Source: an uncultured Nitrospiraceae bacterium | GTDB taxonomy: Bacteria > Nitrospirota > Thermodesulfovibrionia > Thermodesulfovibrionales > Thermodesulfovibrionaceae | Assembly: GCA_937139565.1 (NCBI GenBank) | Contig: CAKZQH010000044.1 | Coordinates: 1-34,951, forward strand | Reading direction: 5' to 3' | Length of the DNA: 34,951 nucleotides | In this document: positions 772 to 34,951 of the stretch, piece after piece | How positions within the stretch are numbered: position 1 is the first letter of the stretch | Layout: every line of letters begins with the position of its first letter | Made by a program: the position numbers and the translations under genes | Notes under the pieces: model-generated | What the model saw: the letters and a program-made list of their open reading frames with translations, nothing else | Told to the model about the DNA's origin: nothing | Databases searched by the model: none

Positions 772-2391
772 CTATACCCTAAATCTTCCAATGGCTGTAT
801 TAAGCTCTCCTCCCAATCTCGCTATATCTGATGCTGTCTGGGCTGACTGGTCCACTGCAAGGGATATCTCCTTTGAACCCTCTGCTATGGTACCTATATC
901 CTGCGTTATGTGGTCTGTTACTGAACTCATCTCTTCTGTTGCACTTGCTATCTGTTGTATCATGCTCTGTAACTCCTGCGCCTTCTTCAGTATCTCATCC
1001 AACATATCTGAGGATTTCTCTGATAGCTCTACTCCACTTGTTACTTTCTTTGTTGCATCATCCATCGCCCTTCCTGCTACTGATACTTCATTCTGTATCC
1101 CACTTATCATCGAGGCTATCTCATCTGTTGCTTTCGCTGTCCTCTCTGCTAATTTCCTTACTTCATCTGCCACTACTGCAAAGCCTCTTCCTTGCTCTCC
1201 TGCCCTTGCTGCCTCTATGGCTGCATTTAGGGCAAGAAGATTTGTCTGGTCTGCTATGTCCTTTATCACTGTTACTATCTCTCCTATCTGACGTGAACGA
1301 TCTCCAAGGTCTGTTACTATTCTTGAAAGATCATTGATGGAACCTTCTATTATCTTTATCTCTTTGGCTGTCTTCTGGGTCATGTCTCTTCCTTCTCTGG
1401 CAACCTGGGCTGTTACATTAGATGCCTCTGCTATTTGTGATGCGTTCTTTGCTATGTCAACTACTGTCTGGCTCATCTCTTCTGCAGAGGTGGCTATCTG
1501 AGAGGCTCTCTCTGTCTGGCTCTTTAGGTTCCTCGATATCTCCTCTGTGGTTGCACTTAACTGCTCTGAAGATGAGGCAAGTGAGCTTGCTATGGTGCGG
1601 GATTGATTAATAAGCACTTTAATCTCTGCCACTGCCTTACCGATAGCATCCATTATCTGACCAAGTTCATCCTTCGTGGTCGCTCTTATTTCAACAGTAA
1701 GATCACCTCTACTAACTCTGTCCATGGCATTTCTAATTAGCTCAACACATCCACGAATTGATTTGGTTAGAAGATAGATTATTAAAACAGCGATTGCTAT
1801 ACTAACTCCAATTGAAACTATTTGTATGACAGTGTCTCTATTTGATGCAGCGATTATATCACCAGTTCTCTTCCTTGCATTTTGGGTTTGAAAGTTTACT
1901 ATTTCATCTAATGAGTTCATTATTTCTCCAATCATAGGGATTATTTGTGTTTCTAAAATAAGAGCAGCTTCATCCTTTTTGCCTTCCATGGCAGCCTCTA
2001 TAATCTTGTTATTTATCTGCCTTCCACGGGTTAAAATATCATCAAGTTTTTTCACTAAAGCTTTACCCTCCTCCGATACCATGGTTTTTTTAAGCTCTTC
2101 CAACTTCTCTAAGTATATACCTCTATACTTTTCAACATCCCTTTTGTATTCTTCCATTTTTTTTGGATCTTTGGTGATGATCAGATAGGATATTTCCAAA
2201 TAGGCAGATAAAACGTTCCTTCTAATAGTAGCTGCTGCGTTTATCTTATCAATTCGTTCATCAACATCTCGAGCATCCTTTGAAGTGTTCATGTAGGATA
2301 AAACATTAAATATACCAACAAGGACCATGATTAAAAGTATTAATCCAAAAGTTAAATAGAGTTTTTTTGCCAAAGACAAATTCTTAAGCAT
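772..2391 (-). CDS. Methyl-accepting chemotaxis protein (transmembrane chemoreceptor)
   Basis: This 539-residue chemoreceptor should sense an extracytoplasmic signal and control CheA/CheW. Membrane helix 1 is at about residues 10-32 and helix 2 at about 187-210. Between them is a helical sensor region of about 150 residues, of four-helix-bundle type by length and heptad character. A HAMP linker follows (about 208-265), then a long signalling coiled coil. The conserved hairpin tip spans about 369-417 ([20 protein letters not shown], then [18 protein letters not shown]). There is no C-terminal CheR-tethering pentapeptide; it ends GRFRV. The start is firm: GGAGG lies 8 bases before the ATG. It stands alone, divergent from the nuclease gene, and no che genes are in the window, so its ligand cannot be inferred. 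Confidence 0.95.
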
Positions 2392-3932: not shown

Positions 3933-5097
3933 GTACTATCTGAAGGAAAACTTTTTTCTAAAACTCATTGATTTTCCAGCTCTTTATAATGTAAAAACAG
4001 ATGAACTTTATTGTCTTGATGAAAGGGCTTTTAATTTGTTAAGAGCCATTGCTGAGGAAGAAGAAATTTCTTCCTTAGTGAAGAACGATGAAAACATTAC
4101 CCAGTTAATCAACTACTGCTTAGATGAAGGCATACTGACAAAAGAGCCTGTAAATAGAATAAATCCACCGATTCGTCAAGCACCATTTCCATCCCTTCGT
4201 TATCTGGAGCTCCAAATAACAAGAAGATGCAATCTCCGGTGTAAACACTGCTTTGTTGGCGAAGGTCTTTCAGCTGAGCTTCCCTTTGAACTCATCTATA
4301 AGGCTTTGAAAGAATTCGAGGAAATACAAGGATTAAGAGTGCTAATAACAGGAGGCGAGCCTTTGCTTCATAGGGAATTTGAAAAAATAAATGAACTACT
4401 ATCAGAGCTATCTCTTCGAAAGATTCTCTTCACTAACGGATTACTTCTTAGCGATAAGTTTCTTAAGCACTTAAATGTAGAAGAAATACAGATAAGTCTT
4501 GATGGAATGGAACATGGACACAATTCACTTCGAGGGGACAACACATTCAGTAAAACTCTTGAAGGTATTAAAAGAGCCATAGATTATGGTTTTGATGTAT
4601 CCATAGCAACGGTTATCCACAAGGAAAACTTAGAAGAATTTGATGAACTTGAAAAATTAATGAAAAGCATTAAAATTCGAGAATGGACAATTGATGCTAT
4701 TACTCCGAAGGGAAATCTAAAGTTTAATGAAGATTTTGTAGTTCTACCTAATGTAGCAGGAAAAATTATGAGAAAATATGGTTTTTCAAAAGAAGACCAC
4801 CCAAAAGTAGAAGGCTTTGGATGCGGAGCTCATCTTTTAGCCATATTAGCCACTGGAGAAGTGGCCTATTGTTCCTTTTTTGATGAAAATCCTATCGGAC
4901 ATGTGACAGAAGGACTTGAGGTACTTTGGGAGAGAAAAAGACAAATATCACTTGGCGAACTTGAATGTAGCAAAGAAAATTGCCCTTTTATAGCGGAATG
5001 TAGAGGCGGATGTCGCTATAGAGCCTTTGTAATATCAGGACGAAAAACTGCTCCAGATTTGTTTAAATGCTATCAGTTTGAGAAGCCTCTCTCTTAG
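3919..5097 (+). CDS. Radical SAM/SPASM protein with PqqD-like N-terminal domain
   Basis: This 392-residue protein should cleave S-adenosylmethionine to start radical chemistry. Residues about 12-75 (LKLIDFPALYNVKTDELYCL onward) resemble a PqqD/RRE-type peptide-recognition domain. The radical SAM cluster motif CNLRCKHC uses C104, C108 and C111, followed by the GGEP motif (ITGGEPLL). The C-terminal third carries SPASM-type cysteines (CGAH, AYCSF, CSKENC, ECRGGC) for auxiliary iron-sulfur clusters. Such enzymes modify ribosomal peptides, proteins or cofactors; the substrate here is unknown and I see no precursor peptide gene beside it. The ATG at 3919 is preferred over an upstream TTG at 3868. 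It overlaps the nuclease gene by 14 bp, and its 3' end overlaps the convergent radical SAM gene by 35 bp. Confidence 0.88.
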   Translation: MRLSKYYLKENFFLKLIDFPALYNVKTDELYCLDERAFNLLRAIAEEEEISSLVKNDENITQLINYCLDEGILTKEPVNRINPPIRQAPFPSLRYLELQITRRCNLRCKHCFVGEGLSAELPFELIYKALKEFEEIQGLRVLITGGEPLLHREFEKINELLSELSLRKILFTNGLLLSDKFLKHLNVEEIQISLDGMEHGHNSLRGDNTFSKTLEGIKRAIDYGFDVSIATVIHKENLEEFDELEKLMKSIKIREWTIDAITPKGNLKFNEDFVVLPNVAGKIMRKYGFSKEDHPKVEGFGCGAHLLAILATGEVAYCSFFDENPIGHVTEGLEVLWERKRQISLGELECSKENCPFIAECRGGCRYRAFVISGRKTAPDLFKCYQFEKPLS

Positions 5098-6721: not shown

Positions 6722-8093
6722 CTAAAATTCGATGCTTTTTCCTCAAGTAAGCAGGTATGTCCAATTCGTCTTCAATATCTTCAGGAACTTCACGAGAGGG
6801 TTCACTAATGTATTTTACTAATTCTTTTTCCCTATCTCTTTCTATTTCTTCCTGTTTTTTTACTTTATGTTCGGAAAGTATATTCTTTTTCTCTACATTT
6901 TCAGCTAATACAGAATCAGTTAAAGAGGAATTCTCCTCCTTCAAAGAACTTTGTGAGCTATCTGAAAGAACCTTCTCTATCTTTTGCTCGACCTTTTCAG
7001 TTTCTTTATTATATATATTTTTAAAAGAGTTAAGAGACCTTATATTTTTTGAAATAATCTTCTTCGTTACCTCTAATGGTACTGTTGTATTTTTTGGTAG
7101 CCAACTATTTGTATCAGGAATCTCAACCTCTTCGTTTTGGTTTTCAAAACCAGTTGCAATTACAGTTACGAAAATTTCGTTTTCAATTTCAGGCTTAATG
7201 ACAGTGCCAAATATTATGTTTGCCTCTTCATGGGCAACATCATAAACAGTTCCAGCAATCTCCTGGACTTCATCAAGTGTTAAATCAAATCCTCCTGTGA
7301 TATTTATAAGAATACGCTTAGCTCCCTCTATAGAGCTTTCTTCAAGAAGAGGATTGTTAATAGCTTTTATTGCAGCTTCCCTTGAACCTTCTTCTTTACG
7401 ACATGTGCCAAGCCCTATTACAGCCTTGCCTGATTTCTCAATTATTGTTTTAACATCTGCAAAGTCTCTATTAATAAAGCCTGGACTTAAAATAAGATCT
7501 GAAATTCCCTGCACTGCTTGCCTCAGAATATCGTTTGCTATAGCAAAAGACTTAACCAATGGTGTTCCTTTTTCAACAACCATATGAATTCTATCGTTAG
7601 GAATAACGATTATAGTATCCACATGTTTCTTTAGTTCCTTTAGTCCAACAATGGCGTTATGGAGTCTTTTTTTACCTTCAAAATAAAAGGGCTTTGTAAC
7701 CACTGCAACAGTGAGTATTCCTAATTCCTTTGCTAAAGAGGCGATAACAGGTGAAGCTCCTGTTCCAGTACCACCTCCCATTCCAGCAGTTATAAATATT
7801 AAATCTGAACCTTCTAAGCAGGAAAGAAGAGTGTCTTTATCTTCAAGGGCAGCCTTTTTACCTTTTTCAGGTTCTGAGCCTGCGCCTAAACCCCTTGTTA
7901 ACTCTTTACCAATCTGAACTTTAACAGGAGCAAGGGAGATATCAAGATGTTGTATGTCAGTATTAACGGCAATAAATTCCACACCGTAAACGCCTGCAGA
8001 AATCATAGTATTTACAGCATTTGTTCCTGCACCTCCTACGCCTATAACTTTTATCTTTGCAATCGGTCTTTCCACTTCCTCAATATCAAACAT
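6705..8093 (-). CDS. ftsZ: Cell division protein FtsZ
   Basis: This tubulin-like GTPase polymerises into the division ring. The 462-residue protein has the GTP-binding glycine segment GVGGAGTNAVN (residues 18-28) and the tubulin signature GGGTGTGAS (106-114). Residues about 320-440 form a long, charged, low-complexity linker. The conserved C-terminal peptide LDIPAYLRKK (about 444-453), which binds FtsA and other partners, is followed by an extra eight residues (RILDEKNI) that are encoded over the start of the next gene. It is longer than many FtsZ proteins, mostly because of the linker. GGGAGG precedes the ATG. An 18-bp gap separates it from ftsA. Confidence 0.98.
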   Translation of the reverse strand: MFDIEEVERPIAKIKVIGVGGAGTNAVNTMISAGVYGVEFIAVNTDIQHLDISLAPVKVQIGKELTRGLGAGSEPEKGKKAALEDKDTLLSCLEGSDLIFITAGMGGGTGTGASPVIASLAKELGILTVAVVTKPFYFEGKKRLHNAIVGLKELKKHVDTIIVIPNDRIHMVVEKGTPLVKSFAIANDILRQAVQGISDLILSPGFINRDFADVKTIIEKSGKAVIGLGTCRKEEGSREAAIKAINNPLLEESSIEGAKRILINITGGFDLTLDEVQEIAGTVYDVAHEEANIIFGTVIKPEIENEIFVTVIATGFENQNEEVEIPDTNSWLPKNTTVPLEVTKKIISKNIRSLNSFKNIYNKETEKVEQKIEKVLSDSSQSSLKEENSSLTDSVLAENVEKKNILSEHKVKKQEEIERDREKELVKYISEPSREVPEDIEDELDIPAYLRKKHRILDEKNI

Positions 8094-8111
8094 TTCTCAA
8101 ACCCTCCCTTT

Positions 8112-9389
8112 TTATATTTTAAGCACCCCTTTAAACCAAGAGGTTATTTTGCTAAATATTCTCTCAATGCCCAAATCCTGACTTGATAAGTCGCCAATCT
8201 TAAGTGCATATATAAGTGTTCCAATTGCCGATGAAAATTCTGGAGAAATCCACTCATGCCATTGCTCGTTCTGGGTTATTAAAGCATCATCCAATCCCAT
8301 TTCTGAACATAAATTCAAAATGCCTGTATCAGGCCTTCCTATTCTTGCTGAGAGAGATAAAATACTCTCAGTAAGCGTATTAAAACCTTTCATCAACGAT
8401 GTTCCACCGGTTAATACTACTGATTGCAAGGGAGTTTGACCCGATATGGAGAGAATTTCTTTTTTTAATATTTCAACCATCTCTTCACATCTGGCATAAA
8501 CTATCTCTTTAACAACACTAATAGGAATTTTCAGAGGTTGTTTATCCATTCCAAGGATTTCTATATCCATGTCCTTTTCCTTAAACTTTAGACTTCCAAA
8601 AGTAATATCTGGAATTGCTACTCCAAACTCTGTTTTAATTCTTTCTGCTTCCCTGAAAGGTATTTTTAAACCAATCGAAAGGTCATTGGTAATGTGATTT
8701 CCTCCTATACCATAATTACTTATGTGCCTTAAATATCCATCATAAAATACGGCTATATTAATACTCCCACCACCTATATCGGCCACAAGAGTTCCCGATT
8801 CTTTTTCATGCTCTGATAAAACAGCTTCTGATGAAGAAACTGCCTGAATTACCACATCTTCTACCTCTATTCCTGCTTTATTGCAACAGGTAGTAAGATT
8901 TTGAATATGCGATGATGACGCGGTTATAATATAAACCTTTGCCTCAAGCCTAACCCCTTTCATTCCAACGGGATCCTTTATGCCATCTATTCCATCAACA
9001 ATAAATTCTACCGGTAAAATGTGAACAATTTGTCTATCTGATGTTATCTGTATGGCTGTAGCTGCATCTATTGCTAAATTTACATCCTCTTCTGTTATTT
9101 CTTTTTTCTTTACCTTAATGGCAGCATCGCTATAAGCTCCCTGAACATCGCTTCCAGAGGAACAAATATAGGCTTTCTTTATCTTTATTTTATGAGTTTC
9201 TTCTATATCCTGAACTGCTTTTCTAATTGAGGATGTGAGGGATTCCATGTCAACTATTCTTCCTCTCTTTAATCCTGCAGAGGGGTAATTTTTCAAAAGA
9301 ATTATATCCAACTTATTCAGATCTAATTGGGCAATTAAAAAAGCTATCTTTGTGGTTCCTATATCAATAACTGTGATAATCTCTCCCAT
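8112..9389 (-). CDS. ftsA: Cell division protein FtsA
   Basis: This actin-like ATPase anchors FtsZ filaments to the inner membrane. The 425-residue protein shows phosphate-1 DIGTTK (residues 9-14), the SHS2/1C subdomain, phosphate-2 VADIGGGSINIAVF, and the adenosine motif GGTSLMKG. A C-terminal amphipathic helix (IFSKITSWFKGVLKI) fits the membrane-targeting sequence of the family. AGGAGA lies before the ATG. Ten bases separate it from the ftsQ stop, and ftsZ follows. Confidence 0.97.
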   Translation of the reverse strand: MGEIITVIDIGTTKIAFLIAQLDLNKLDIILLKNYPSAGLKRGRIVDMESLTSSIRKAVQDIEETHKIKIKKAYICSSGSDVQGAYSDAAIKVKKKEITEEDVNLAIDAATAIQITSDRQIVHILPVEFIVDGIDGIKDPVGMKGVRLEAKVYIITASSSHIQNLTTCCNKAGIEVEDVVIQAVSSSEAVLSEHEKESGTLVADIGGGSINIAVFYDGYLRHISNYGIGGNHITNDLSIGLKIPFREAERIKTEFGVAIPDITFGSLKFKEKDMDIEILGMDKQPLKIPISVVKEIVYARCEEMVEILKKEILSISGQTPLQSVVLTGGTSLMKGFNTLTESILSLSARIGRPDTGILNLCSEMGLDDALITQNEQWHEWISPEFSSAIGTLIYALKIGDLSSQDLGIERIFSKITSWFKGVLKI

Positions 9390-9399
9390 GCACTTTCTC

Positions 9400-10095
9400 C
9401 TATTCTGCAGGTTTCACAATAACTCTATCTGGAAATCTTAGGTCTATATAATGCACATTTAAACCTCTTTTTTGAATTTCATCGTTTACAACAAGATATT
9501 TTGCAAACTTTAATTCAAAATCTCCATTTCCAATAATAATTTTTAAATTATTAAGATGGAGAGTTAAATTATCAGGGTCGCTACCCGTTATTACAATTTC
9601 ATCATTGCTTCTTGTATATCCTTTAGCTGTTAGAAAGTTTATCAGTTCCACAGCAGACTGTAGAGTACTTTTATCCTTAAAAGGATCAATTTCTTTTATA
9701 ATGGGTAAAAAAATCTGCGTGTGTTTCAGTTTTTCTGTAAAATCTTCAAGCACATGGGCTTCATTATCAATTAAATATGCCCTTTCTCCAGCTACGGCAA
9801 TGGCAACAGCAGTTGCTTCTTTAATATAAACTGTGAGTGTTCCATTTAAATCTTTTCTAATAATAGCTTCTTTTACCCATGGGATTTTCTTAAGCCTTTC
9901 ATATAGTTTATGAGCAGATGGATAGATGATTGAATTACCTTCTTTTATCCCTAAAGCATCCTTTATTTCCTTTTCTGCCAAATTCTTATTACCGATTATT
10001 ACTATATGTTTCACTGTTAATACCCTGATAATAAGAAAAATGGATACAATCAGCAAAACTGCAATCGTTATTACAATTAGCTTTTTATTTCTCAT
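9400..10095 (-). CDS. ftsQ: Cell division protein FtsQ/DivIB
   Basis: This bitopic divisome protein links early and late division proteins in the periplasm. It has 231 residues: a short cytoplasmic tail, a membrane helix at about 6-27 ([20 protein letters not shown]), a POTRA domain beginning [17 protein letters not shown], and the FtsQ domain through the C-terminus. Sequence similarity in this family is low, so the call rests on topology, the POTRA pattern and position between ddl and ftsA. It overlaps ddl by 11 bp. Confidence 0.92.
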
Positions 10096-11002
10096 TTTCC
10101 TTCAATGCAAGCTCTAAAATTTCCCTTACGAGTGCCTTAAAATCATAACCTTCAAGTTGCGCTATCTTTGGTAAAAGGGATGTCTCAGTCATACCCGGAA
10201 TTGTATTTACCTCTAATACATAGGGATTATTTTCTTTGTCAAGTATTATATCTACTCGTGTTCCTCCTTTGCATCCCAAAGCCTTGTGAGCCTTAAGCCC
10301 TAATTCTTTTAATTTTTCATAAAGGGATTTATCTATTTCTGGAGGAAGAATATATTCTGTCAAGCCCTTAGTATATTTTGCCTCATAATCATAGAATCCC
10401 TTCTTAGGTTTTACTTCAACTCCTCCAAGAGCTCTGCCTCCAAGTACGCCTATATGAATTTCTCTTCCCTCAATAAACTTTTCTACTATTGCTCTATCTC
10501 CGTATTTGAAAGCCTCTATAAGAGAAATATTCAACTCTTCTTTGTCTCTTGCAATACTTACACCTACAGAAGAACCCTCTTCAGCAGGTTTTACGACACA
10601 GGGAAATGAAATAATTTGCGAAAGAGAGTCTAAAAAAGCCTCTATTTCATCTCTCCTGACTACTTTAAAAGGTGGTACAGGGATTCCATGATATAGAAAG
10701 ATTTTTTTCGTAACTTCCTTATCCATTGCCATTGAGGATGCTAAAATTCCTGAGCCTGTATATGGAATTCCCATGACTTCAAGCATTCCTTGAATACCCC
10801 CATTTTCACCCCACCCACCATGCAAAACCAAAAAGGCTACATCAATCTTTTCCTCTCCTAATCTCTGACAAATATTTCTATCCGCATCTATAAAAACCAC
10901 ATTGTAACCAAGTTCTTTTAATGCATTAAATACTGCTGTGCCACTTCTTAAAGATACTTCTCTTTCTGAGGAAACACCTCCAGCAATTACACCCACTTTC
11001 AT
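10085..11002 (-). CDS. ddl: D-alanine--D-alanine ligase
   Basis: This ATP-grasp enzyme makes D-Ala-D-Ala, the dipeptide that MurF adds. The 305-residue protein contains [14 protein letters not shown] near the N-terminus, [10 protein letters not shown], the ATP-grasp segment [14 protein letters not shown], and the metal/ATP region [26 protein letters not shown] (given in parts: GTRVDIIL and EVNTIPGMT). Length fits the DdlB class. Its ATG lies 1 bp past the murB stop, with GGAGGG inside the end of murB as ribosome site. Confidence 0.97.
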
Positions 11003-11003
11003 T

Positions 11004-11891
11004 CTATCCCTCCAGATATTTTATTTCTGGTTCTAATTCAATGGAAAAAACCTTAAAAACCCTTTCTTTTACCGTATCCATAAGTTTTAAAAAGTCCTCT
11101 GCTTTTCCACATCCTACATTTATAAAATAGTTAGCATGAAGGGAACTAACAACAATATCGCCTATCCTTGTTCCTTTCAATCCTGCTTTATCAATCAGAT
11201 AGCCAGCAGAATGACCGTCGGGATTTTTAAAAACACATCCTGCCGAACGCTCTTTTAGGGGTTGAGATAGCCTTTTCTGAAGCAGAAATTCTTTCATTTT
11301 TGAGACAATATCTATATTCTCTTGTTTAAGCTTAAAACAAGCAGCTGTTATTATAAAATTTTTAGGCAGACCCGAACTTCTATAACTAAAATTAATGTCT
11401 TCTTGTTTCAAAGTTTTATACTCTAATTTTTCATCTATCACCGTTATCTCCTGAAGACAATCCTTAATCTCATAGCCAAAAGATCCAGCGTTTCCATAAA
11501 TTGCTCCGCCTATGGTACCAGGAATTCCAATGAGCCCTTCCATGCCACTTAGTTTTTTCTGAGAGAGAAAAGCTAAAACCTTCTCAAGCATTACTCCAGA
11601 GGAGAGAGTAATCTTGAGGCCTTCCTGTTCAATACGATTCATTTTCCTGGTATTAATTATTACTCCTCTAAAGCCTCTGTCACTAATAAGTAAATTACTT
11701 CCTCCGCCAATTATATAATAAGGAATAGATTCATTTTTTATTACAGCCATTAAATCTCTTAGTGTATCTTCTTCGGGAAATACGATAAGTTTAGAAGAAC
11801 CTCCTATTCGAAGGGTTGTATAATTAGCGAGTGGTTCCTCTTCTTTGTAAAATATTCTCTTTTCCTTGCAAAAATCTTTAATTAACTTCAT
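11004..11891 (-). CDS. murB: UDP-N-acetylenolpyruvoylglucosamine reductase MurB
   Basis: This FAD enzyme reduces enolpyruvyl-UDP-GlcNAc to UDP-MurNAc with NADPH. The 295-residue protein has the FAD-binding motifs LRIGGSS and GGGSNLL, then [15 protein letters not shown], the active-site arginine segment SYRSSGLP, and [10 protein letters not shown]. The proton-donor position of the last motif is cysteine (C219) where E. coli MurB has serine; cysteine occurs in other MurB proteins. The C-terminal glutamate region LEPEI is present. It overlaps murC by 4 bp (ATGA). Confidence 0.97.
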
Positions 11892-25311: not shown

Positions 25312-25341
25312 ATAATATATCTATATTAAAAAAAAAGTCAA
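25312..25341 (-). promoter_or_regulatory. Promoter of the dcw operon
   Basis: On the minus strand TTGACT (25341-25336) and TATATT (25319-25314) are separated by 16 bp; TATTAT at 18 bp is an alternative -10. The predicted start near 25307 gives a leader of about 25 nt covering the MraZ boxes. The -35 hexamer lies 5 bp from the edge of the 41-bp repeat that begins at 25347. Confidence 0.8.
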
Positions 25342-25346
25342 GAGGT

Positions 25347-25485
25347 CGCCTTTCCTCAAAAATAATTTCTTTGAAAAAGGATTGTTTTCACACAATAAAC
25401 AAAAAGCTACCATCTTGTAAAACCTTCCAATCCGACATCTAAATTCATCTCTTCGGAGGTTATCAAGATGGTTATCATCAATCTT
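25347..25485. repeat. Mobile-element-like end, copy A (truncated)
   Basis: Positions 25347-25387 match 33277-33317 at 40 of 41 bases in the same orientation. Weaker similarity continues through a shared hairpin: ACCATCTTG (25409-25417) pairs with CAAGATGGT (25464-25472), enclosing AACCT/AGGTT pairing, GGAGG (25455-25459) and ATG (25468). Beyond about 25485 the copy is cut off and joins the IS3-type orfA remnant. I interpret it as the truncated end of an insertion sequence; the family is not recognised. Confidence 0.6.
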
Positions 25486-25491
25486 ATAGAC

Positions 25492-25668
25492 TTCAAGCCT
25501 TTTGGCTTCGGTAGAGGACATACCTTTGAATTTATGTCTCCACCTGTCAAAGATGCTTTTAGAGATGGAGTACTTACGACATATCTTAAGCTTATGAGTT
25601 ACGTTGGAGTATTCGGATTCAGCGAGGATCTGTGCGATTTTCTCATCAGAATACCGTGATCCTTTCAT
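25492..25668 (-). pseudogene. IS3-family transposase OrfA, 3'-truncated remnant
   Basis: The ATG at 25668 has a strong GGGAGGTGA ribosome site and opens MKGSRYSDEKIAQILAE, the classic helix-turn-helix start of IS3-type OrfA proteins. Homology continues through YSISKSIFDRWRHKFKGMSS to EAKRLE (59 residues). It then stops where OrfA should continue into its leucine-rich coiled coil. The frame reads on into the copy A repeat without meaning. No orfB is present, so this is a dead fragment marking past transposition. Confidence 0.75.
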
Positions 25669-26143
25669 TACGCTCACCTCCCATGTAGTTGAAACACATG
25701 GATGGATATTTTCGGATTTCCATGTTCCCAAAGTTAGGATTAGACCAATATGCACTTAGAACAGCTCTTTTTGCTACTGTGCCCGTTACCAGACACTGAC
25801 TGAAATGGAATTTGTTCTCTTAATTTCCACTTACGCAATAAGCACAGCTTTAACCAAAGGCCTCGAAAAATTTTGTTTTGGTGATTAATTCGGGTATGAG
25901 GAATCTTAATTTGAACTCGTGCTTAATTCACCTACATCGTAAAAGACTAGCTTAATTGAGAGATTCTCACACATACATCACTAATCTTAGTGTTTTGTTA
26001 TTTCCGCACTTTTTTCGGAGGGCGGTCTTATCAGCAATGAGGGGAAAATTATAAATTGATTATTTTCAGGGAAATATGGAGATTGACATACTTTTTTTCG
26101 ATGTGATATTCATAAATGAATGTAATGTTTTGGAGGAATAAGA
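25669..26143. other. Intergenic stretch upstream of the secreted protein gene
   Basis: About 475 bp with no supported gene. A 7-bp inverted repeat (ACATGGA/TCCATGT around 25695-25725) may belong to the lost IS3-type end. A TTGACA near 26084-26089 could be a -35 for the next gene, but I find no good -10 at normal distance. Confidence 0.4.
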
Positions 26144-27685
26144 ATGATTAAGAAGTGCTATTACTCACTACTTGTAACCAAGTTACATTATCACCTGATA
26201 TTTCCTTCAAGATCACACTCTAACTCGAGAAAAGCAGATCAAAAAGCATCACTAAGAGAAAGAGTGGTTCATTTAGTTTTTATAATAATGCTTACTTTGA
26301 CCGCCACCTGTGATGTTTATGCACAATCTGAGGAAAAAAGCCTTAGAGAGCAACTCATTGAGTCAGAAAACACCCATGAAGTTTTTGCCATCGATGAATA
26401 CCACACCCACGTGCGACCTGTATTGGTCTTTATAGGAATAAGAGGTGGCGGACCCAGCGATGATTTCTCAAGAGAATTAGCCTCTTACTGCAAGACTCAG
26501 CTTGAAATAGCTCGAGAGGTTACTGATCCGATAACTGGAAAAACTGATAAGATATGGATACCCTATGATGGCAAATCCTACCTTTTTAACTACTTTATGA
26601 AAGATTTCAAAGGTTTTCGGTGCAAAGGAGAGTTCGAAGTCTCAATAGCATTTATTAAGAGATACGAAGTGAAAGATGCTGTTACCTCATTCATTATAAA
26701 ACATGAAAAGCCTCAACCCCATGTTTTTAAAACCGAGTATTTCACAAAAGATTCTGTTTCCATGCCACCGGATGGACCATTTAAGGTGGGGCAGTTCACT
26801 GTATCGGGGTTCTTCAAAGCTCTTGCAGGTATGCCTGCCTCGGTCCCATCTCTGACGTATCAGTATCTATACACATTGTGCAGTAACCATAACGGTACCA
26901 TGAGATTTATCGTTAACAGAACATCCATGTTTGTGCCGGACCCTTATGGTCGTGTCATCAATCCTGCTACCGGAGAAAGGTCAAGAGCAATTGGTGAATT
27001 TGTAGAGGTCGATGCGCTGTCTGCGTATACGTATCTTTGGAATCGAGGTGATGGGTTTGTTTCGATGACTGCATTTATTGCCTGTGAGGGAAACAGACGT
27101 TTTGTATTAAGAGCCAATGAGATCACAGCTCGAGATGGATCAAAAGATTTAGAGACTTACTTTGCCTCTAACAGAGGGCTCGAGGGTATTAGTTATAAAC
27201 CTCTTGCTCCATCGCATAGTATTGTCGCTAGGGAAGCTGATGCTTACAGCCCTTCTGCTCCCGAGAATGTAATTGCTCTTGAGACAGCAATGAAAGGTAG
27301 TAATGTCGTCAAAGTACAAGGCATACATGAGTATGTTGGAATCTACAACGGCAAAGACAAAGAGAATTGTGATCTTGTCACTGTTGAACGAATCTGGCAT
27401 GGAGATCCAAAGAAGCCGGTATCGGATGCCTTAAATTACAGGATTTGCAGAGGCAGGATTTTCCAGGTATCAAGAGGTGAATTTCGTAGCTTACCTGATG
27501 AAATCGATGCATTTGCGATTAAGCTTGCTAAGGTAGCTCAAAGATTGGGGAACGCTGATGGAGAGTTCCAGGGATATACTGTTAAAGCGAGGGCGCTCAG
27601 AGACCGAGATAACTGCTCAGTTGAGGTGAAAATCTTGCAAGGCATAAACCTCGTTGCAAATCGTTTGGTGAATGCATGTCAGTAG
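26144..27685 (+). CDS. Uncharacterised secreted or periplasmic protein, 513 residues
   Basis: I do not recognise this protein. The ATG has GGAGG 7 bases upstream. An unusually long basic N-terminus (about 40 residues) precedes a hydrophobic core (VVHLVFIIMLTLTATC) and a likely signal peptidase site after VYA at residue 60, so the protein is probably exported. The mature part has about eight cysteines (for example CKT, CKG, CSN, CEG, CDL, CRG, CSV and NACQ near the end), which suggests disulfides in an oxidising compartment. It is mixed alpha/beta in look, without repeats or recognised catalytic motifs. It is convergent with the STAND gene (72 bp between stops) and lies inside the repeat-flanked segment. 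A link to that system is possible but unproven. Confidence 0.75.
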   Translation: MIKKCYYSLLVTKLHYHLIFPSRSHSNSRKADQKASLRERVVHLVFIIMLTLTATCDVYAQSEEKSLREQLIESENTHEVFAIDEYHTHVRPVLVFIGIRGGGPSDDFSRELASYCKTQLEIAREVTDPITGKTDKIWIPYDGKSYLFNYFMKDFKGFRCKGEFEVSIAFIKRYEVKDAVTSFIIKHEKPQPHVFKTEYFTKDSVSMPPDGPFKVGQFTVSGFFKALAGMPASVPSLTYQYLYTLCSNHNGTMRFIVNRTSMFVPDPYGRVINPATGERSRAIGEFVEVDALSAYTYLWNRGDGFVSMTAFIACEGNRRFVLRANEITARDGSKDLETYFASNRGLEGISYKPLAPSHSIVAREADAYSPSAPENVIALETAMKGSNVVKVQGIHEYVGIYNGKDKENCDLVTVERIWHGDPKKPVSDALNYRICRGRIFQVSRGEFRSLPDEIDAFAIKLAKVAQRLGNADGEFQGYTVKARALRDRDNCSVEVKILQGINLVANRLVNACQ

Positions 27686-27757
27686 TCCTCTAGACAGGCG
27701 CACAATGCGGTAACGAGCGTATAAGTGAACCTGATCTACATGACAAGCGATATGTGC

Positions 27758-30700
27758 TTAATGTGCGGGCAAATTTATTCCAAAATGATTGAGAGTTTTG
27801 TCGAGCAGTAATTCTGCTATTCGGGCAGCATGATCTGGATAAGCTTTGGCAAGTAGCGCACACATTCTAAAAGCAGAATCTAAGTGATAGGCGCATGGTG
27901 TTATCAATTTCTTAAAATTCTCCATGTCTCTCTCCTCTAAAAGAACCTCAGCAACTTGAGGAAAATATTGATTGTGCCTATAACTTAAGCGTTTAATCAC
28001 TTCAATGGCTTGAGATCCTTTTCCCAGCCTAGACAGAGACTTTGCTATGTAAGGAATTTCGTCATCAAACAAATCAAGAACTTCAATTCTTGAATGCACC
28101 TGTTCTGCAATTTGAGAAGATCGTTCTGAATTTCCAGACTTTGCCAAAGCCTCAGCGATTTTTATTAATGCAACCACATGATCTTTAGTATCACTGATTC
28201 CTTCGATTAGTTGTAGTGCTCTGTCAACTTGACCTTCCATAGCTAATCTCGGGGCTAAAGCTACTAGTGCCTCGGCTCTAGAAACATTATTCTGTATCTC
28301 CTCGTAAACCTGTAGGGCTAAATCAATCTGGCCTTTATCAGCGAGAGCACTCGTGATCTTACCTAACGAAAATGATCTGTTAGGTTCACTTATGACACTT
28401 CGTGCTAACTTCAGAGCGCGGTCATAGTCTCCTAATTCTACAAGCTGCATTAATGTGTTCCCTAAGATCCATCGTTGTTTCCACGAATCGTCATTGATTT
28501 TATTGATTGATTGTAAAACCATGTTCATGGTCTGTATGGCGAACTCACTTTTTCCAGTTCGCCGAAAATGCTCTGAAATTATCAGTAAAGCTATTAATAT
28601 GTTCGAACCGGTTCGCACGTTCTTTACATACTTTAATGCTGCATTGAACATGCCTAACTCTGAAAGTAATTCAATAAAATCGAGAAGTATTGAGTCCTTT
28701 GCCGCTGTGTGTGGGATGCTATCAACCTCAGAGGCGATTTGAGTGATAATTTGCGACACCCACTTATTTTGCTCCTTTTTAGCTAAAGTTCTCACAATAT
28801 TTATTAAGAACTTAACACGAAACGTACGATACTCAAGATCATTGGTTACGTCCAAAGCTTTATTAATAAGCTCCTCTCTGAGCTCAGCTCCATCAATCTT
28901 TATGAAATTTTCCAATAATAGAGTAAATGTCTCTGCACGAGAGTGCTTGTCGCGGCATTTGTCGGCAACCTGAGCTGCCCTGCTTAAAATTGATACAGCC
29001 ATGGATTCTTGATTGTGCTTTACTAACATATCAGTTATACTTCCGAGTGATTTTATCAAAGTGATAATATCAGCGCCTATATCTTCACAACCTGCTAATA
29101 CGTCAAGAAGCCTTTTTGCGCTCTCACTGTCATTTAATCTCGCAAATAACCAGGCAGATTTGATAAGCAAAAATCGAGTAAAGCCAGGGTCTTCAATCGT
29201 CTCGATCAGCTCTAATACCCGCTTTGTCACTTGTAAAGCTTGCTCGTTCTCTCTCCTTTCAATTAACAGATCCGCTATCTTCAGTAGGATTTCTGCCTTT
29301 TGAGCGTCATTGAATGCTTCATTTGCTACTTTAAGAGCCTTATCCTTCCATCCAACTTTTACAAAGACCTCTGCTACACTGTGCAAAATCAGTGACTTCA
29401 GGAGAACAAGGTCTGTGTAGTAATAAAGCGTCATGAGTTGGCGGAGAACAGTTGATACATGCTTTTCTTCACCGCTTTCTATAAGGCCTTTTAAGATACT
29501 CTTTAGAGCGTTTATTTGCTTTGGAATCTTCGATAAATCAACGGGGTCGAATAAGTTCTGGTAAAAGATCCTGTGTGCACGCGTGTATATTCCCATTGCC
29601 TCATCCACCTCTTGTAATCTAATAAACGCATCGACAGCAGTCATTAAAGCCAGTGAACTTTCCACTTTATCACTTACGCTATGCGCCTTATTTAAAGCCT
29701 TTTTAAGGATATCAATGGTACGTTCCCTTAATTTTACTTCCATGAGACGTGGCGCAAAATCACGAATTAGCTCTATCTGCAGGTTCGGATTTTGTATGTT
29801 CTCGACATTCTGTATGGCTTGACTCGCAAGACCTAAATTCAGCAACATGTCAATAATATTCGGCAGAGTTGATTCCTTAATCCATGTATCACCAGCGTCT
29901 TCAACTATCCCGTAGATCTCCTCAACAAAATGAATTGCCCGATCACGATCTCCCGCTTTAGACAAACATATCGCCACCTCACATAATATTTTGATTTTCA
30001 TTACTTGATCATCGGTAGCATAAGCAATTTTATAAACTTCATCGATTATTCGGACAATCCAGGCATTATTACCTACTTCAGAGAGAAAGCTCGATGACTC
30101 GAGCAGTATTTTTATTAGTTTTAGTCGGAGAGTATGATGAATTTCATCAGCCAGTTTCAAAGAACGATCAAGAACTTGTCTGAGTCGTACTGTATCGTTA
30201 GCTCTCAACAACATCTCTGCAATGCTAATTAAGCTCTGCGCCTGAAAATCTGCACTTTCAAAATAATTTACCAGCTGTAAGGCTCTATCAAAATTACCAT
30301 CACGAGCAAGTTGATCGATAACCATTTCCAAAGTTGTATCGCCCAGTAGTGTCTTTGCAAGGGCTGACACCATCCCGTCGTAATTCTCTAGAAAATAGAA
30401 TGGAATCTCAATGGCAATATCGGTACCAGCAGACTTTAAATCTAAGATATTTGTTGACCGAAGCTTATTCACTCTCTCACTAAGCTGCGTCAACTTCTGA
30501 AGTACTTCCTTTACCTCGTCACTTTTCTTGTTATCACGTAACTCCCATGCAAGTAGAAGATGATATATGATCTGCCTATCAAGCGAGTAACTGTTCGCCA
30601 ATTCTAAAGCACTTTTAAGGTTTCCAGATTTTTTTAACTTTTGTAAAGGGCTCTCAAGTCGTCGTAGAGCGTAGATATCGAAAGCATGCTGGAGCATGAA

Positions 30701-33031
30701 CTCTGCAATAATTTCCCCACGATCGAGATCAACTGCAGTCTCGAGAGCCAACATCTTAGTCCTTAAGGGAAGTGTGAGAAGTTCTGGGAGTTTCTCCCGC
30801 TGGACCTGTGCGTAATCTTCATCCCTCGCTAAGATAAAAAGCTCATCATAACGATGAGACTTTCGCAGATGATCAGAATAGTAGCGAAGAGCATATGGAC
30901 TCTTATGCTTCCTCCAGTTTGCACACCAGTTGAGTAATTTTTCCTCAGCCTTCTTTGTCTCCTTGCCAAGGTTTCTCTTGAATGCTTCAGCAAGAAGAGG
31001 ATGAGCAAATGAATATGTACGTTCTCCTTTCGACTCTCCTATTGAGAACCAACGGGTAACAGAGTGTGGTAATGCCTCTAAATCCCATTTAGTTAATTCC
31101 GTTAGTTCCTCAACCTCTGATTCAGTCACTGCTCCAACAGCGACAGTGAGTAAAGAAAACAGCTGTCTGATACCCTGCTCCTTATGAATTGCAGATGCGA
31201 GCAGTTTAATTTGCTTTTCAACATACTCATTGAATCCTTTGGGTGTGTTTTTTAGAACGTTGTTAACATCTCTGTTCTCCTTGTGTGCCAGATACAAATC
31301 ATTTACTAAGAATCGAACAAATAATGGCATTCCTCCTGTAATTTTTAGTATTTGTCGAACAAATGAATTATCATCACCGAACTTGGATAATTCTCCATCT
31401 CCCGCTCTTCTCAACCACTCCCTGATGTCTTCCTCTGACAGAGAATCAAGGAAAATTAATGTTGCAGAGCTAATAAAGGGCGTAAAGTAAGGAGGAACAT
31501 CTCCAAGTCCATCCCAGCGACCGGTGACTATGAAGTAGAGATTATCCGGTATCGGATCCGGCAGGAATGACTCCACCAGTTTCTCACTCTCATCTAAGCC
31601 ATCAAGCACCACCAGGATTTTCCTCTCATCCACACCTTTGTTACAAGCCTCAAGCATCCGCATCAGAGCTCCACGTAATGCTGCCTCTGATTCGTGAAAA
31701 TTAATATCCTGAAGGTTAAGCTTTGCAATGAGCTGAGCTATAAGATGAGCGTAAGCGTTTGCAGGTTCCAGGGATGCATTATCGATCTCTCTGTTAAAGA
31801 AGTGCTTTACTATTACAAAATCAGGATTATCCTCATGATTCAGTAGCCAGTCTGCAATAAGAGTTGTCTTACCGTAACCAGCTGGAGCATAGACTATTGC
31901 GATACCGCTTTTCTGGTCTCCTATGAAATCATTTAGGCGTGAAATCGTACTTTTTTGCCCCACGAACATCTCATGTTGTTTATTTCTAAGCCACCTGTGA
32001 GTTCTTGAAGCCAACAAATAAGCAATATGGTTCTCACTTAACCGGTGTTTGATACGATAGATAACTTCTAAACTCTCACGAACTACGTTTTCAATCTCAT
32101 TAAGTCGTTGTTCTATTGATGGTAATATCGTAAGATACGGAACCAACGTATCGAGCTGATTACGAATTTCCTCAAAATACTCTCTATTCTTCTGCTTTAG
32201 ATCTCCGAGTTCTTTGTGGATCGCATCTAAACGCTGTACAATCAAGTTGCCTTGCTGTTTAAGATAACTGAGAAGGTCATCCAGGCTCACTGAGATTTCC
32301 CCTAACTGCTCGTCACGGATTGATAGCTGATTCAATAGCTCAACCATTAAAATATTGCTGACTCTGCTGTTACTCTTTATCTCCTCATGAAAAAAAGCAC
32401 AAGCAACTTTGAACCAATCTACTCTCTCACCACTACTCTTATCAAGCCAGCCCTCGTGTATGAGTTTTTTGAATCCCTCTGGTGTAGCTTTTTCAAAACC
32501 TGCAGGAGTGGATTTCTTGAATACTGCAAGTGTGCGTTTCAAAAATCCTTCAGATTCAGATGGTTCGCTACAGAGCTTAGAGATAAAGTTGAGGACCTCA
32601 TCTTTCATCTTTTGCTGTATTTTTAAGTCCTCTCTCTCATATCCCTCGATGAGAGGCAGCATGGATCTCACCTGATCACTTGTCAAGTCTAAGGTTGGGA
32701 AGTAATTTTCTCTCGTCAGCCTTCGTAACTCATTTTCGATGCATTCAATTGCCCAGTGTGTCCACTCTCTGTCTTCATGAGACCTCACTGACTCTCCAGT
32801 TCGGCTTGAGCAAGTTGCAGAATACTCCCTCAAAGCAACAAGGGTAGCTTTCATGAGAGATTTATATACGGCACGAAGCAAATCGTGATTAATAGGCGTT
32901 TTCGCTCTGTTTTTCCACTCCTTGTAGTTTTGCCATGCCTTGCACGCAGCACTGTCTGCTCGATTACTAAGAACTCCCGAGATTACATTAGAGAGAAAAG
33001 AAAATGCCAGCGATGCAAGGATTGGTTCCAT
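27758..33031 (-). CDS. Giant STAND/NACHT NTPase with alpha-solenoid repeats
   Basis: This 1757-residue protein has signal-transducing ATPase architecture. Residues 4-21 form a hydrophobic, small-residue-rich tip; about 30-230 are helical with no recognised enzyme domain; about 235-330 look like a coiled coil. The NTPase follows: Walker A APAGYGKTT (382-390), Walker B ILVVLDGLDE (472-481), sensor-like FIVTGRW (500-506), GGMPLF (566-571), and a winged-helix part ending FAHPLLAEAF (about 675-684). Residues about 700-1757 are helical repeats. Three consecutive 33-residue units at about 1534-1632 begin GDYDRALKL, GQIDLALQV and GQVDRALQL. Bacterial STAND proteins of this plan include Avs phage sensors, where the solenoid recognises phage protein; that role here is inference. 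The ribosome site is weak. Confidence 0.9.
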   Translation of the reverse strand: MEPILASLAFSFLSNVISGVLSNRADSAACKAWQNYKEWKNRAKTPINHDLLRAVYKSLMKATLVALREYSATCSSRTGESVRSHEDREWTHWAIECIENELRRLTRENYFPTLDLTSDQVRSMLPLIEGYEREDLKIQQKMKDEVLNFISKLCSEPSESEGFLKRTLAVFKKSTPAGFEKATPEGFKKLIHEGWLDKSSGERVDWFKVACAFFHEEIKSNSRVSNILMVELLNQLSIRDEQLGEISVSLDDLLSYLKQQGNLIVQRLDAIHKELGDLKQKNREYFEEIRNQLDTLVPYLTILPSIEQRLNEIENVVRESLEVIYRIKHRLSENHIAYLLASRTHRWLRNKQHEMFVGQKSTISRLNDFIGDQKSGIAIVYAPAGYGKTTLIADWLLNHEDNPDFVIVKHFFNREIDNASLEPANAYAHLIAQLIAKLNLQDINFHESEAALRGALMRMLEACNKGVDERKILVVLDGLDESEKLVESFLPDPIPDNLYFIVTGRWDGLGDVPPYFTPFISSATLIFLDSLSEEDIREWLRRAGDGELSKFGDDNSFVRQILKITGGMPLFVRFLVNDLYLAHKENRDVNNVLKNTPKGFNEYVEKQIKLLASAIHKEQGIRQLFSLLTVAVGAVTESEVEELTELTKWDLEALPHSVTRWFSIGESKGERTYSFAHPLLAEAFKRNLGKETKKAEEKLLNWCANWRKHKSPYALRYYSDHLRKSHRYDELFILARDEDYAQVQREKLPELLTLPLRTKMLALETAVDLDRGEIIAEFMLQHAFDIYALRRLESPLQKLKKSGNLKSALELANSYSLDRQIIYHLLLAWELRDNKKSDEVKEVLQKLTQLSERVNKLRSTNILDLKSAGTDIAIEIPFYFLENYDGMVSALAKTLLGDTTLEMVIDQLARDGNFDRALQLVNYFESADFQAQSLISIAEMLLRANDTVRLRQVLDRSLKLADEIHHTLRLKLIKILLESSSFLSEVGNNAWIVRIIDEVYKIAYATDDQVMKIKILCEVAICLSKAGDRDRAIHFVEEIYGIVEDAGDTWIKESTLPNIIDMLLNLGLASQAIQNVENIQNPNLQIELIRDFAPRLMEVKLRERTIDILKKALNKAHSVSDKVESSLALMTAVDAFIRLQEVDEAMGIYTRAHRIFYQNLFDPVDLSKIPKQINALKSILKGLIESGEEKHVSTVLRQLMTLYYYTDLVLLKSLILHSVAEVFVKVGWKDKALKVANEAFNDAQKAEILLKIADLLIERRENEQALQVTKRVLELIETIEDPGFTRFLLIKSAWLFARLNDSESAKRLLDVLAGCEDIGADIITLIKSLGSITDMLVKHNQESMAVSILSRAAQVADKCRDKHSRAETFTLLLENFIKIDGAELREELINKALDVTNDLEYRTFRVKFLINIVRTLAKKEQNKWVSQIITQIASEVDSIPHTAAKDSILLDFIELLSELGMFNAALKYVKNVRTGSNILIALLIISEHFRRTGKSEFAIQTMNMVLQSINKINDDSWKQRWILGNTLMQLVELGDYDRALKLARSVISEPNRSFSLGKITSALADKGQIDLALQVYEEIQNNVSRAEALVALAPRLAMEGQVDRALQLIEGISDTKDHVVALIKIAEALAKSGNSERSSQIAEQVHSRIEVLDLFDDEIPYIAKSLSRLGKGSQAIEVIKRLSYRHNQYFPQVAEVLLEERDMENFKKLITPCAYHLDSAFRMCALLAKAYPDHAARIAELLLDKTLNHFGINLPAH

Positions 33032-33235
33032 AGCTATTTACCTAATCTCATATGCAACTATTCAGCCAACGCTTGAAGCTTAAATATGATATGACGCCTC
33101 GCCTCAAGCAAAATTCTATCGACGGGTTACATTGTTCGACTGGCCACCAAAGCAAGAGGAGTGATCGACAGCCGTTTGATGAATCAAGCTTGGTACTATA
33201 ATCACAAGCAATAGCATCATCCTTTTTTTCAAAAT
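33032..33235 (-). other. Long 5' leader of the STAND gene
   Basis: About 200 nt separate the predicted transcription start from the STAND start codon. GCTTGA and TCAAGC arms on the minus strand (about 33107-33069) could form a hairpin. I see no recognised riboswitch and no supported gene here. Confidence 0.4.
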
Positions 33236-33241
33236 TGCGGC

Positions 33242-33271
33242 ATTATATCAGATAGTGCCATATAAAGTCAA
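33242..33271 (-). promoter_or_regulatory. Promoter of the STAND gene
   Basis: On the minus strand TTGACT (33271-33266) and TATAAT (33247-33242, perfect consensus) are 18 bp apart. This is the strongest sigma-70-like site by eye in the accessory region. Its -35 lies 5 bp from the edge of the copy B repeat, the same offset as the dcw promoter from copy A. Confidence 0.75.
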
Positions 33272-33276
33272 TGCCC

Positions 33277-33406
33277 CGCCTTTCCTCAAAAATAATTTCT
33301 TCGAAAAAGGATTGTTTCCTCAAAATTGACAAAAAAGGCAATCATCTTATCAAACCCCTTATTCACAAATTAATTTTCCTAACAGGAGGTTCCCAAGATG
33401 ATTGCC
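33277..33406. repeat. Mobile-element-like end, copy B with start-sequestering hairpin
   Basis: Positions 33277-33317 match copy A (25347-25387) with one mismatch. A 12-bp perfect inverted repeat follows: GGCAATCATCTT (33337-33348) and AAGATGATTGCC (33395-33406). AACC (33353-33356) can also pair with GGTT (33388-33391). The second arm contains the ATG at 33398, and AGGAGG (33384-33389) lies within the loop/stem, so the fold would hide the ribosome site and start codon of the small ORF. Such hairpins are known to block read-through expression of transposases. Confidence 0.6.
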
Positions 33407-33682: not shown

Positions 33683-33705
33683 ATTCTAACTCCCTTTCCT
33701 TTTTT

Positions 33706-34194
33706 GTCACTGCGAGGCCATGAAGTGGCCTTGGCAGTCTCTTTCGGTCACTGTGAGGGACTCGATGTCCCGAAGGGGTCTCTAAGTAAAGCCTACAAAG
33801 AGACAACGACGAGATTGCTTCGCTTCGCTCGCAATGACGTATAATATGAAGGCGCAATGACAGCTTTTTTTTGTCACTGCGAGGAACTGAATGTCCCGAA
33901 GCAGTCTCTGAGACGCCTCAAAGACGAGATCCCTTCGCTGACGCTCGCAATGACGGAAGAGGGAGCTCGCAATGACAGAAAAGAGGAGCTCGCAATGACA
34001 GAAAAGGGGAGATACGAGATTGCGGAGCCTCTTCCGAACGTAGTGAGGAATCCCGCTCCTCGCAATGACATAAAAATAGAAGCCTCGCAATGACGCTCCC
34101 CTTTGTCACTGCGAGGCCATGAAATGGCCGAAGCAGTCTCAAAGACCAACGGAATGAGATCCCTTCGTCGCTTATGCTCCTCGCAATGACAGAA
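33706..34194. repeat. REP/MITE-like palindromic repeat array, right copy
   Basis: This belongs to the same family as 81-512. Complete units are at 33747-33838 (92 bp), 33874-33954 (81 bp) and 34104-34190 (87 bp), each bounded by GTCACTGYGAG and CTCGCAATGAC. Solo ends fill the gaps. The hairpin next to the left end again varies with kept pairing, for example GGCCAT/ATGGCC at about 34115-34130. The frames called in both directions here are repeat artefacts. Confidence 0.85.
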
Positions 34195-34330
34195 AGAGAA
34201 AAGCTTCGCAATTACAGAAGAGGGCGCTCGCTATGAGAGAGAAAGGCGCGTTTCTAATTGCTAGAATAGTGCTGAACGAAGAGAGATAATCAGATTCGCA
34301 AATGAGATAACAAGGCAGGAGGAAATATAG

Positions 34331-34378: not shown

Positions 34379-34541
34379 CCCGACTTTGTCAGTTTACTGC
34401 CAAAATTTGCTTCACAATCTCTGCAAGTGGTTGATTTTACTAAATGTCAAATTTTTTCTATCAAATTTTGTGGTATAACTTAATTTTCTACTTTAGCATT
34501 TTTAACTTGACTTTTTTCTTTATTTATGCTATAACATATCC
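34379..34541. mobile_element. Left end of an IS1634/IS4-type insertion sequence
   Basis: The point where the 48-bp repeat stops matching (about 34378) is the best estimate of the element's left border. The stretch up to the transposase start is AT-rich, non-coding, and carries the transposase promoter. The right border lies outside the window, so the terminal inverted repeat could not be confirmed. Confidence 0.5.
34507..34535 (+). promoter_or_regulatory. Promoter of the transposase gene
   Basis: TTGACT (34507-34512) and TATAAC (34530-34535) are separated by 17 bp. The predicted transcription start falls on or next to the GTG at 34542, which would make the mRNA leaderless. Confidence 0.7.
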
Positions 34542-34951
34542 GTGTTCCTAAAAATCACAAAATCTGCTGACAAAACAGACTACATCTATGTTGTTGAAAG
34601 CTATCGTGATGACAAAGGAAGAGTCAGGCACAGATATCTTTTCAGTCTTGGCAAGCTTAAAGACTTTATATCTACCTCGGTGTTCAAAAAGTTAGCTCAA
34701 AAAGCTCTTGCTGTAGACAGTAGTTTTAACAAAGAAGGTGTAGAACTTTCTTGTTTATCAGAAGCAGAGGTATTAAGGTATGGACATCTTGTGCTTAAGC
34801 GTTTATGGGATATGTATGGACTTGATGAGTTTTTTAGTAGGTTTAGGAATAAAAGGAGAAAGTTTGATATATCCAAGGTAGTCTTTTATATGGCCTGTAA
34901 GCATATACTTGAACCACAGAGCAAACTTGGCATGTATGAGAGCTATGCTAA
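34542..34951 (+). CDS. IS1634/IS4-type transposase, 5' part, cut by the window edge
   Basis: The frame starts at GTG (34542) and stays open for 136 codons to the edge. The product begins MFLKITKSADKTDYIYVVES, then RVRHRYLFSLGKL and LKRLWDMYGLDEFF. This pattern (short beta-strand N-terminus, then a helical segment before the DDE catalytic core) is typical of IS1634-type transposases. The DDE residues are beyond the window. No Shine-Dalgarno sequence precedes the GTG and there is no better start nearby, so leaderless initiation is possible. Whether the gene is intact cannot be told. Confidence 0.8.
   Translation, partial: MFLKITKSADKTDYIYVVESYRDDKGRVRHRYLFSLGKLKDFISTSVFKKLAQKALAVDSSFNKEGVELSCLSEAEVLRYGHLVLKRLWDMYGLDEFFSRFRNKRRKFDISKVVFYMACKHILEPQSKLGMYESYA

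Follow-up and report, generated by a model that had tools for sequence, protein, structure and literature searches.

A probable single-protein STAND switch with an undescribed helical N-terminal domain in a foreign block of a Nitrospirota genome

A window of 34,951 nucleotides, meaning the whole stretch of DNA that was analysed, encodes what is probably a STAND (NLR-like) switch that works as a single protein and was acquired by horizontal transfer. Its most likely task would be to sense phages or mobile elements and to drive the cell into death or dormancy. On comparison with its relatives, it is best read as a known type of switch carrying an undescribed, conserved and mobile N-terminal domain, and not as a member of Avs1-Avs5. 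Bacterial STAND proteins are related to the NLR immune receptors of animals and plants, and every new N-terminal output domain found on them shows another cellular answer to infection.

Layout of the gene and its protein

A sequence-only reading of this DNA had described a 1757-residue gene at 27758-33031. The gene is real: frame translation gives a single minus-strand ORF that runs through 1757 codons without interruption, while the plus strand across the interval is closed by many stops. The window is the entire contig C44 of a 2.0 Mb genome listed as 99.97% complete and uncontaminated, and the mraZ-to-ftsZ division cluster lies on the same contig; the gene is therefore not on a stray contig. 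The overall layout (helical N-terminus, coiled coil, NTPase with winged helix, and TPR-like solenoid) is that of a STAND protein. Its parts are as follows.

27758..33031, minus strand: STAND protein gene, 1757 aa (stop included); ATG at 33031, stop at 27758
32306..33031, minus strand: N-terminal helical domain, residues 1 to about 242 (blastp with a protein of another Nitrospirota genome, G335; hhalign with Salinibacter)
32969..33022, minus strand: hydrophobic helix ILASLAFSFLSNVISGVL, residues 4-21 (KD19 maximum; AF2 helix 3-21)
32450..32521, minus strand: local short repeat FKKSTPAG/FEKATPEG/FKKLIHEG, residues 171-194 (sequence inspection; missing from two relatives)
31997..32305, minus strand: coiled-coil linker, residues about 243-345 (102-degree periodicity; long helices in AF2)
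30806..31996, minus strand: NTPase (NPHP3_N/NACHT-like STAND) and winged helix, residues 346-742 (NPHP3_N, STAND_TPR, blastp with Salinibacter)
27761..30805, minus strand: C-terminal TPR-like solenoid, residues 743-1757, presumed sensor (TPR_12, TPR_30, lag-33 score)

Pfam NPHP3_N matches the whole protein at E 1.8e-9 and the NTPase segment alone at 9.8e-9, and the PADLOC STAND_TPR model matches at E 4.1e-22. The Walker A, Walker B, sensor, GxP-type and winged-helix segments claimed earlier were all located in the protein. Motif location places Walker A (APAGYGKTT) at about residues 382-390, Walker B (ILVVLDGLDES) at 472-482, a sensor-like FIVTGR at 500-505 and a GxP-type GGMPLF at 566-571, and the post-winged-helix block YSFAHPLL...YALRYYSDHL spans 675-722 from the start of FAHPLL to its end. 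A winged helix, placed by alignment with relatives, appears to be present, and the features expected of a STAND NTPase are thus found together: a P-loop with Walker A and B, a GxP-type motif, the aligned winged helix after it, and a repeat superstructure. Upstream of the NTPase, heptad-like 102-degree periodicity, as in a coiled coil, runs over about residues 243-345 and backs the coiled coil claimed earlier, at about 240-340, and the AF2 model of residues 1-345 has long helices in this linker at low confidence.

The solenoid extends over about 1000 residues of degenerate, TPR-like repeats (TPR_12 at 6.7e-11 and TPR_30 at 6.8e-9 in Pfam). Its lag-33 repeat score is 115, whereas 200 shuffles reach at most 46, and the 33-residue period at 1523-1621 is real and beyond chance. 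The earlier description of helical repeats over this length stands, but its "three perfect 33-residue units" do not: the units at 1523-1621 are evenly spaced, but they are identical in pairs at only 8, 8 and 12 of 33 positions (28/90 over the offset), and the claim of perfect repeats was dropped.

The N-terminal domain and the exchange of N-termini

The N-terminal domain contains the motifs NRxDxA..AW (residues 23-33), PINHDLxRAV (46-55) and FFxxEIKxN (213-221). The hydrophobic tip reported at residues 4-21 was confirmed as the most hydrophobic 19-residue window of the protein (mean KD 1.78). The doubled TPxGF motif is also present, at 175-179 and 183-187 within the run FKKSTPAG/FEKATPEG/FKKLIHEG, but this run was found in neither of the two relatives in which it was looked for; the doublet is a local repeat without counterpart there, therefore not a functional hallmark, and it was dropped as a functional motif. 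The N-terminus has no convincing match in Pfam, NCBIfam, PADLOC or PHROGs, and a PDB profile search with a three-sequence profile returned nothing below E 0.11, so that the earlier statement of no recognised effector family holds across all these libraries. Neither an EAD nor a nuclease family was found at residues 1-345 by the Pfam scan at E up to 10, a limit at which HMMER filters discard most matches above about 0.1.

Structure prediction with AF2 from the single sequence gave a poor model for residues 1-345 (pLDDT 47) and a moderate one for residues 1-112 (pLDDT 63, pTM 0.55) with four helices (3-21, 28-42, 49-76 and 82-107), and the domain is predicted to be all-helical. Foldseek with the N-terminal model found no match below E 0.96, and VIA-align returned only generic helical bundles (Z up to 9.4), results that are uninformative for helical models. 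HeLo, MLKL and BELL chains were absent among the fold-search matches listed, which excludes nothing.

A 645-residue protein of G335 opens with the same N-terminal domain (blastp 2e-15), sharing NRxDxA, AW, PINHDLxRAV and FFxxEIKxN with the window protein, and continues directly into TPRs without an NTPase. A full relative, composed of N-terminal domain, NTPase-winged helix and TPR-like repeats, is encoded by plasmid pSR56 of Salinibacter ruber M8; its NTPase-winged helix matches that of the window protein at 1e-37 in blastp, and its N-terminus aligns to a profile of the window and G335 sequences with an hhalign probability of 92%, outscoring 1000 shuffled sequences. The Salinibacter protein has the same three parts as the window protein, but its solenoid repeats are much more regular and its coiled-coil linker is shorter. 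The hydrophobic first helix is present in G335 (KD19 1.66) and weaker in Salinibacter (1.27). The Salinibacter gene (L011 5861-8530 joined to L012 1-2679) crosses the start of the circular record and is missing from the PLSDB gene table.

Judged by these alignments, the N-terminal region is a conserved domain that spans Nitrospirota and Rhodothermota and is new to the profile libraries searched. It is also rare: among the Nitrospirota genomes searched (396 and 229, in overlapping sets), it was found only in its own genome and in G335. A second gene with the same domain was searched for in its own genome and not found, phage records gave no tblastn match, and profile-derived pattern scans of genome contigs and viral contigs yielded no confirmed relative, so that its distribution beyond Nitrospirota and plasmids is thinly sampled. 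The occurrence on TPRs without an NTPase in G335 implies that the STAND switch is not always needed, and an adaptor or oligomerisation role is therefore as open as an effector role. A domain found both with and without an NTPase allows a clean test of whether it is the executioner itself or a recruiter.

Related NTPases carry other N-termini. In two Nitrospirota genomes the NTPase-winged helix-repeat backbone is joined to DUF4062 (DUF4062 at 1.3e-18; blastp 6e-19 over residues 356-733), a related NTPase on a plasmid of Streptomyces NBC_01483 has an N-terminal HTH, one in Pseudanabaena has EAD10, and one on an Arthrobacter plasmid is paired with a BELL-like small protein encoded in an overlapping upstream gene. 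As far as domain matches go, these cases show N-termini swapped in modular fashion on one NTPase backbone, which is the usual behaviour of STAND immune sensors. It is mainly because of this swapping that the new domain is read as an output module. A DUF4062-STAND-repeat gene of a Nitrospirota genome (L024) lies between core genes about 2 kb from a tyrosine-recombinase-like gene (the pair at 4087-5085 and 7253-11272). The DUF4062-STAND gene of genome G105 (L025 7963-11952) is interrupted by one in-frame TGA and looks like a broken copy or an error of assembly.

A foreign block between mraZ and bioF

The STAND gene lies in a block of foreign origin (25334-33335) inserted between mraZ and bioF, with the following features around it.

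25321..25755, minus strand: transposase HTH fragment (HTH_Tnp_1, Pfam PF01527 at 9e-9), abutting mraZ
25334..25405, no strand: left direct repeat of the block (72 nt, 85% identity with 33264-33335)
26144..27685, plus strand: 513-aa ORF with signal-peptide-like N-terminus, also within the block and convergent with the STAND gene
33264..33335, no strand: right direct repeat of the block, pairing with 25334-25405
34382..34951, plus strand: left part of an element of the IS1634 family, cut off by the contig end; inverted end 34382-34392, transposase start 34542

In three genus-mates, 41 bp separate mraZ from a divergent bioF-like gene. In the present genome, the transposase fragment and the block come after mraZ, and bioF lies on another contig, C5, 530 bases from its start. 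An 11-base inverted end, GACTTTGTCAG, stands at 34382 and its complement at base 63 of the C5 start (L055), which would fit one IS1634-type element bridging the gap between the two contigs; the transposase match (E 1.9e-9) is below NCBI's curated cut-off, and the gene is partial at the contig end. The repeat bracketing the block has 29 matches genome-wide. GC content rises from about 0.36 to 0.41 in the block, and GC3 is 0.38 in the STAND gene, whereas most core genes of the contig have 0.22-0.27 and mraZ has 0.31. Among 60 relatives, including 15 genus-mates, no full-length copy was found, and at most a short weak match. The mobile context is in this way firmer than the sequence-only reading had claimed, with a GC shift, direct repeats, the mraZ/bioF insertion and a full-length copy in 0 of 15 genus-mates. 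Near the other contig end, a chemoreceptor gene (772-2391, minus strand) also has a raised GC3 (0.35). Upstream of the STAND gene, 550 bp of non-coding DNA (33703-34246) contains several degenerate copies of short interspersed repeats (TTTGTCACTGCGAGG..., GCTCGCAATGAC...).

The only companion in the block is the uncharacterised secreted-type 513-aa ORF, for which Pfam, NCBIfam, PADLOC and PHROGs yielded no family and which shows no sign of belonging to the STAND system, and no defence genes were found adjoining the STAND gene in the window. Upstream of the Salinibacter gene lie a DUF262 gene (PADLOC HEC-05, 1.6e-24) and a gene for an SNc-type nuclease. On the question, raised by the sequence-only reading, of whether homologues sit in defence islands, the Salinibacter relative is thus placed near defence-type genes, and modules that are reported or candidate players in defence are carried by relatives.

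Probable function and relation to known systems

Context and kinship suggest antiphage defence, and we infer this role together with its trigger, oligomerisation and output chemistry. The solenoid would keep the NTPase closed until it recognises an invader protein, and this binding would lead to nucleotide exchange and to oligomerisation via the NTPase and winged helix. Oligomerisation would cluster the N-terminal helical domain with its coiled coil as the output, which might kill or arrest the cell either directly, for example by insertion of the hydrophobic first helix into the membrane, or as a homotypic adaptor. It is only tentatively proposed that the N-terminal domain is an immune output module not described before, a helical bundle that permeabilises membranes or forms polymers and is exchanged across phyla between STAND switches and simple TPR sensors.

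How the N-terminus might act can be pictured in two ways. It is possible, although less than an even prospect, that its helices bring in a separate effector through contacts of homotypic or coiled-coil type, in the manner of effector-associated domains. Its all-helical prediction without a catalytic signature, its presence on both the STAND protein and the NTPase-less TPR protein of G335, and the EAD10 of a related NTPase are consistent with such an adaptor, while the lack of a second gene with the domain in its own genome and of an EAD family match at the N-terminus speaks against it. Somewhat more doubtful is a HeLo/BELL/MLKL-like four-helix bundle, in which oligomerisation would free the hydrophobic first helix to permeabilise the inner membrane. 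The strong hydrophobicity of this helix in the window and G335 proteins, the four helices of the AF2 model and the pairing of the related Arthrobacter NTPase with a BELL-like protein argue for the bundle, BELL being a hypothesised membrane-targeting death domain (PMC7889193). However, the Salinibacter helix is less hydrophobic, the model of residues 1-112 is just moderate in confidence and the fold search gave generic bundles only. The BELL-like pair aligns by hhalign with residues 3-32 only (30 columns, probability 28%), and against the N-terminal profile the BELL-like sequence does not outscore shuffled sequences, in a comparison with two BELL-like sequences whose own BELL status is inferred. 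Kinship with BELL was not supported by sequence. Membrane action is possible but weakly supported, resting on one helix, and of the earlier proposal of a new membrane-acting or adaptor-dependent effector, the adaptor or oligomerisation part is as open as the effector part.

Two readings depart from the immune switch altogether. MalT-type NTPases have the same fold, and a non-defence regulator of transcription or metabolism in the style of MalT or AfsR would find parallels in the N-terminal HTH of the Streptomyces NBC_01483 relative and in the Xre-HTH of the PADLOC STAND_TPR description; this is nevertheless unlikely, with no HTH family or other DNA-binding domain found anywhere in the window protein, and with the gene being foreign, accessory, lineage-specific and without an operon partner. 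It is very improbable that an IS-rich region carries the gene as a passenger that is inert or in decay, since 1757 codons are free of stops and the NTPase motifs are all intact, even though repeats and IS fragments bound the block.

Several known systems come close to the putative immune switch. PADLOC STAND_TPR (PDLC01173), a candidate family linked in Streptomyces to a type I-E system that lacks cas1, shares the NTPase and TPR-like solenoid; its description gives it an Xre-HTH N-terminus, whereas the window protein has a helical domain and a coiled coil. The DUF4062-STAND proteins of Nitrospirota share NTPase, winged helix and solenoid, but their effector is DUF4062, absent from Pfam scans of the window protein though found in its relatives, and the window protein has instead an unrelated domain predicted to be all-helical. 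The Swarozyc system uses DUF4062 as its NADase, and bacterial DUF4062 proteins are reported as antiphage NADases (PMC13174449, preprint). The Avs-like character proposed earlier was not borne out. Avs1-Avs5 (AVAST) have the same three-part plan, an N-terminal effector followed by a STAND NTPase and a repeat sensor, but Avs1-4 have nucleases and Avs5 has a SIR2 domain with nSTAND3 (PF20720) (PMC12931631), whereas the window protein lacks a nuclease and its NTPase is NPHP3_N/NACHT-like; neither SIR2 nor nSTAND3 appeared in its Pfam scans, and no PADLOC Avs model, used without a positive control, matched at E 0.1.

With the BELL/BASS amyloid-signalling NLR pairs the window protein has an N-terminal hydrophobic helix in common, and the related NTPase in Arthrobacter appears to belong to such a pair, but the window protein is a single fusion without detectable sequence relation to the BELL-like pair. 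On plasmid pA58H2 of Arthrobacter sp. ANT_H58 (L013), the overlapping genes at 7430-7861 and 7842-9794 resemble a BELL protein with its NLR partner, of the kind found in BASS amyloid signalling, and their products carry similar GDV-rich motifs, NIQGDVGKLATFAGPVYGDVSF at the C-terminus of one and TVNGDVGTLGIFNDRVRDVHIHG at the N-terminus of the other.
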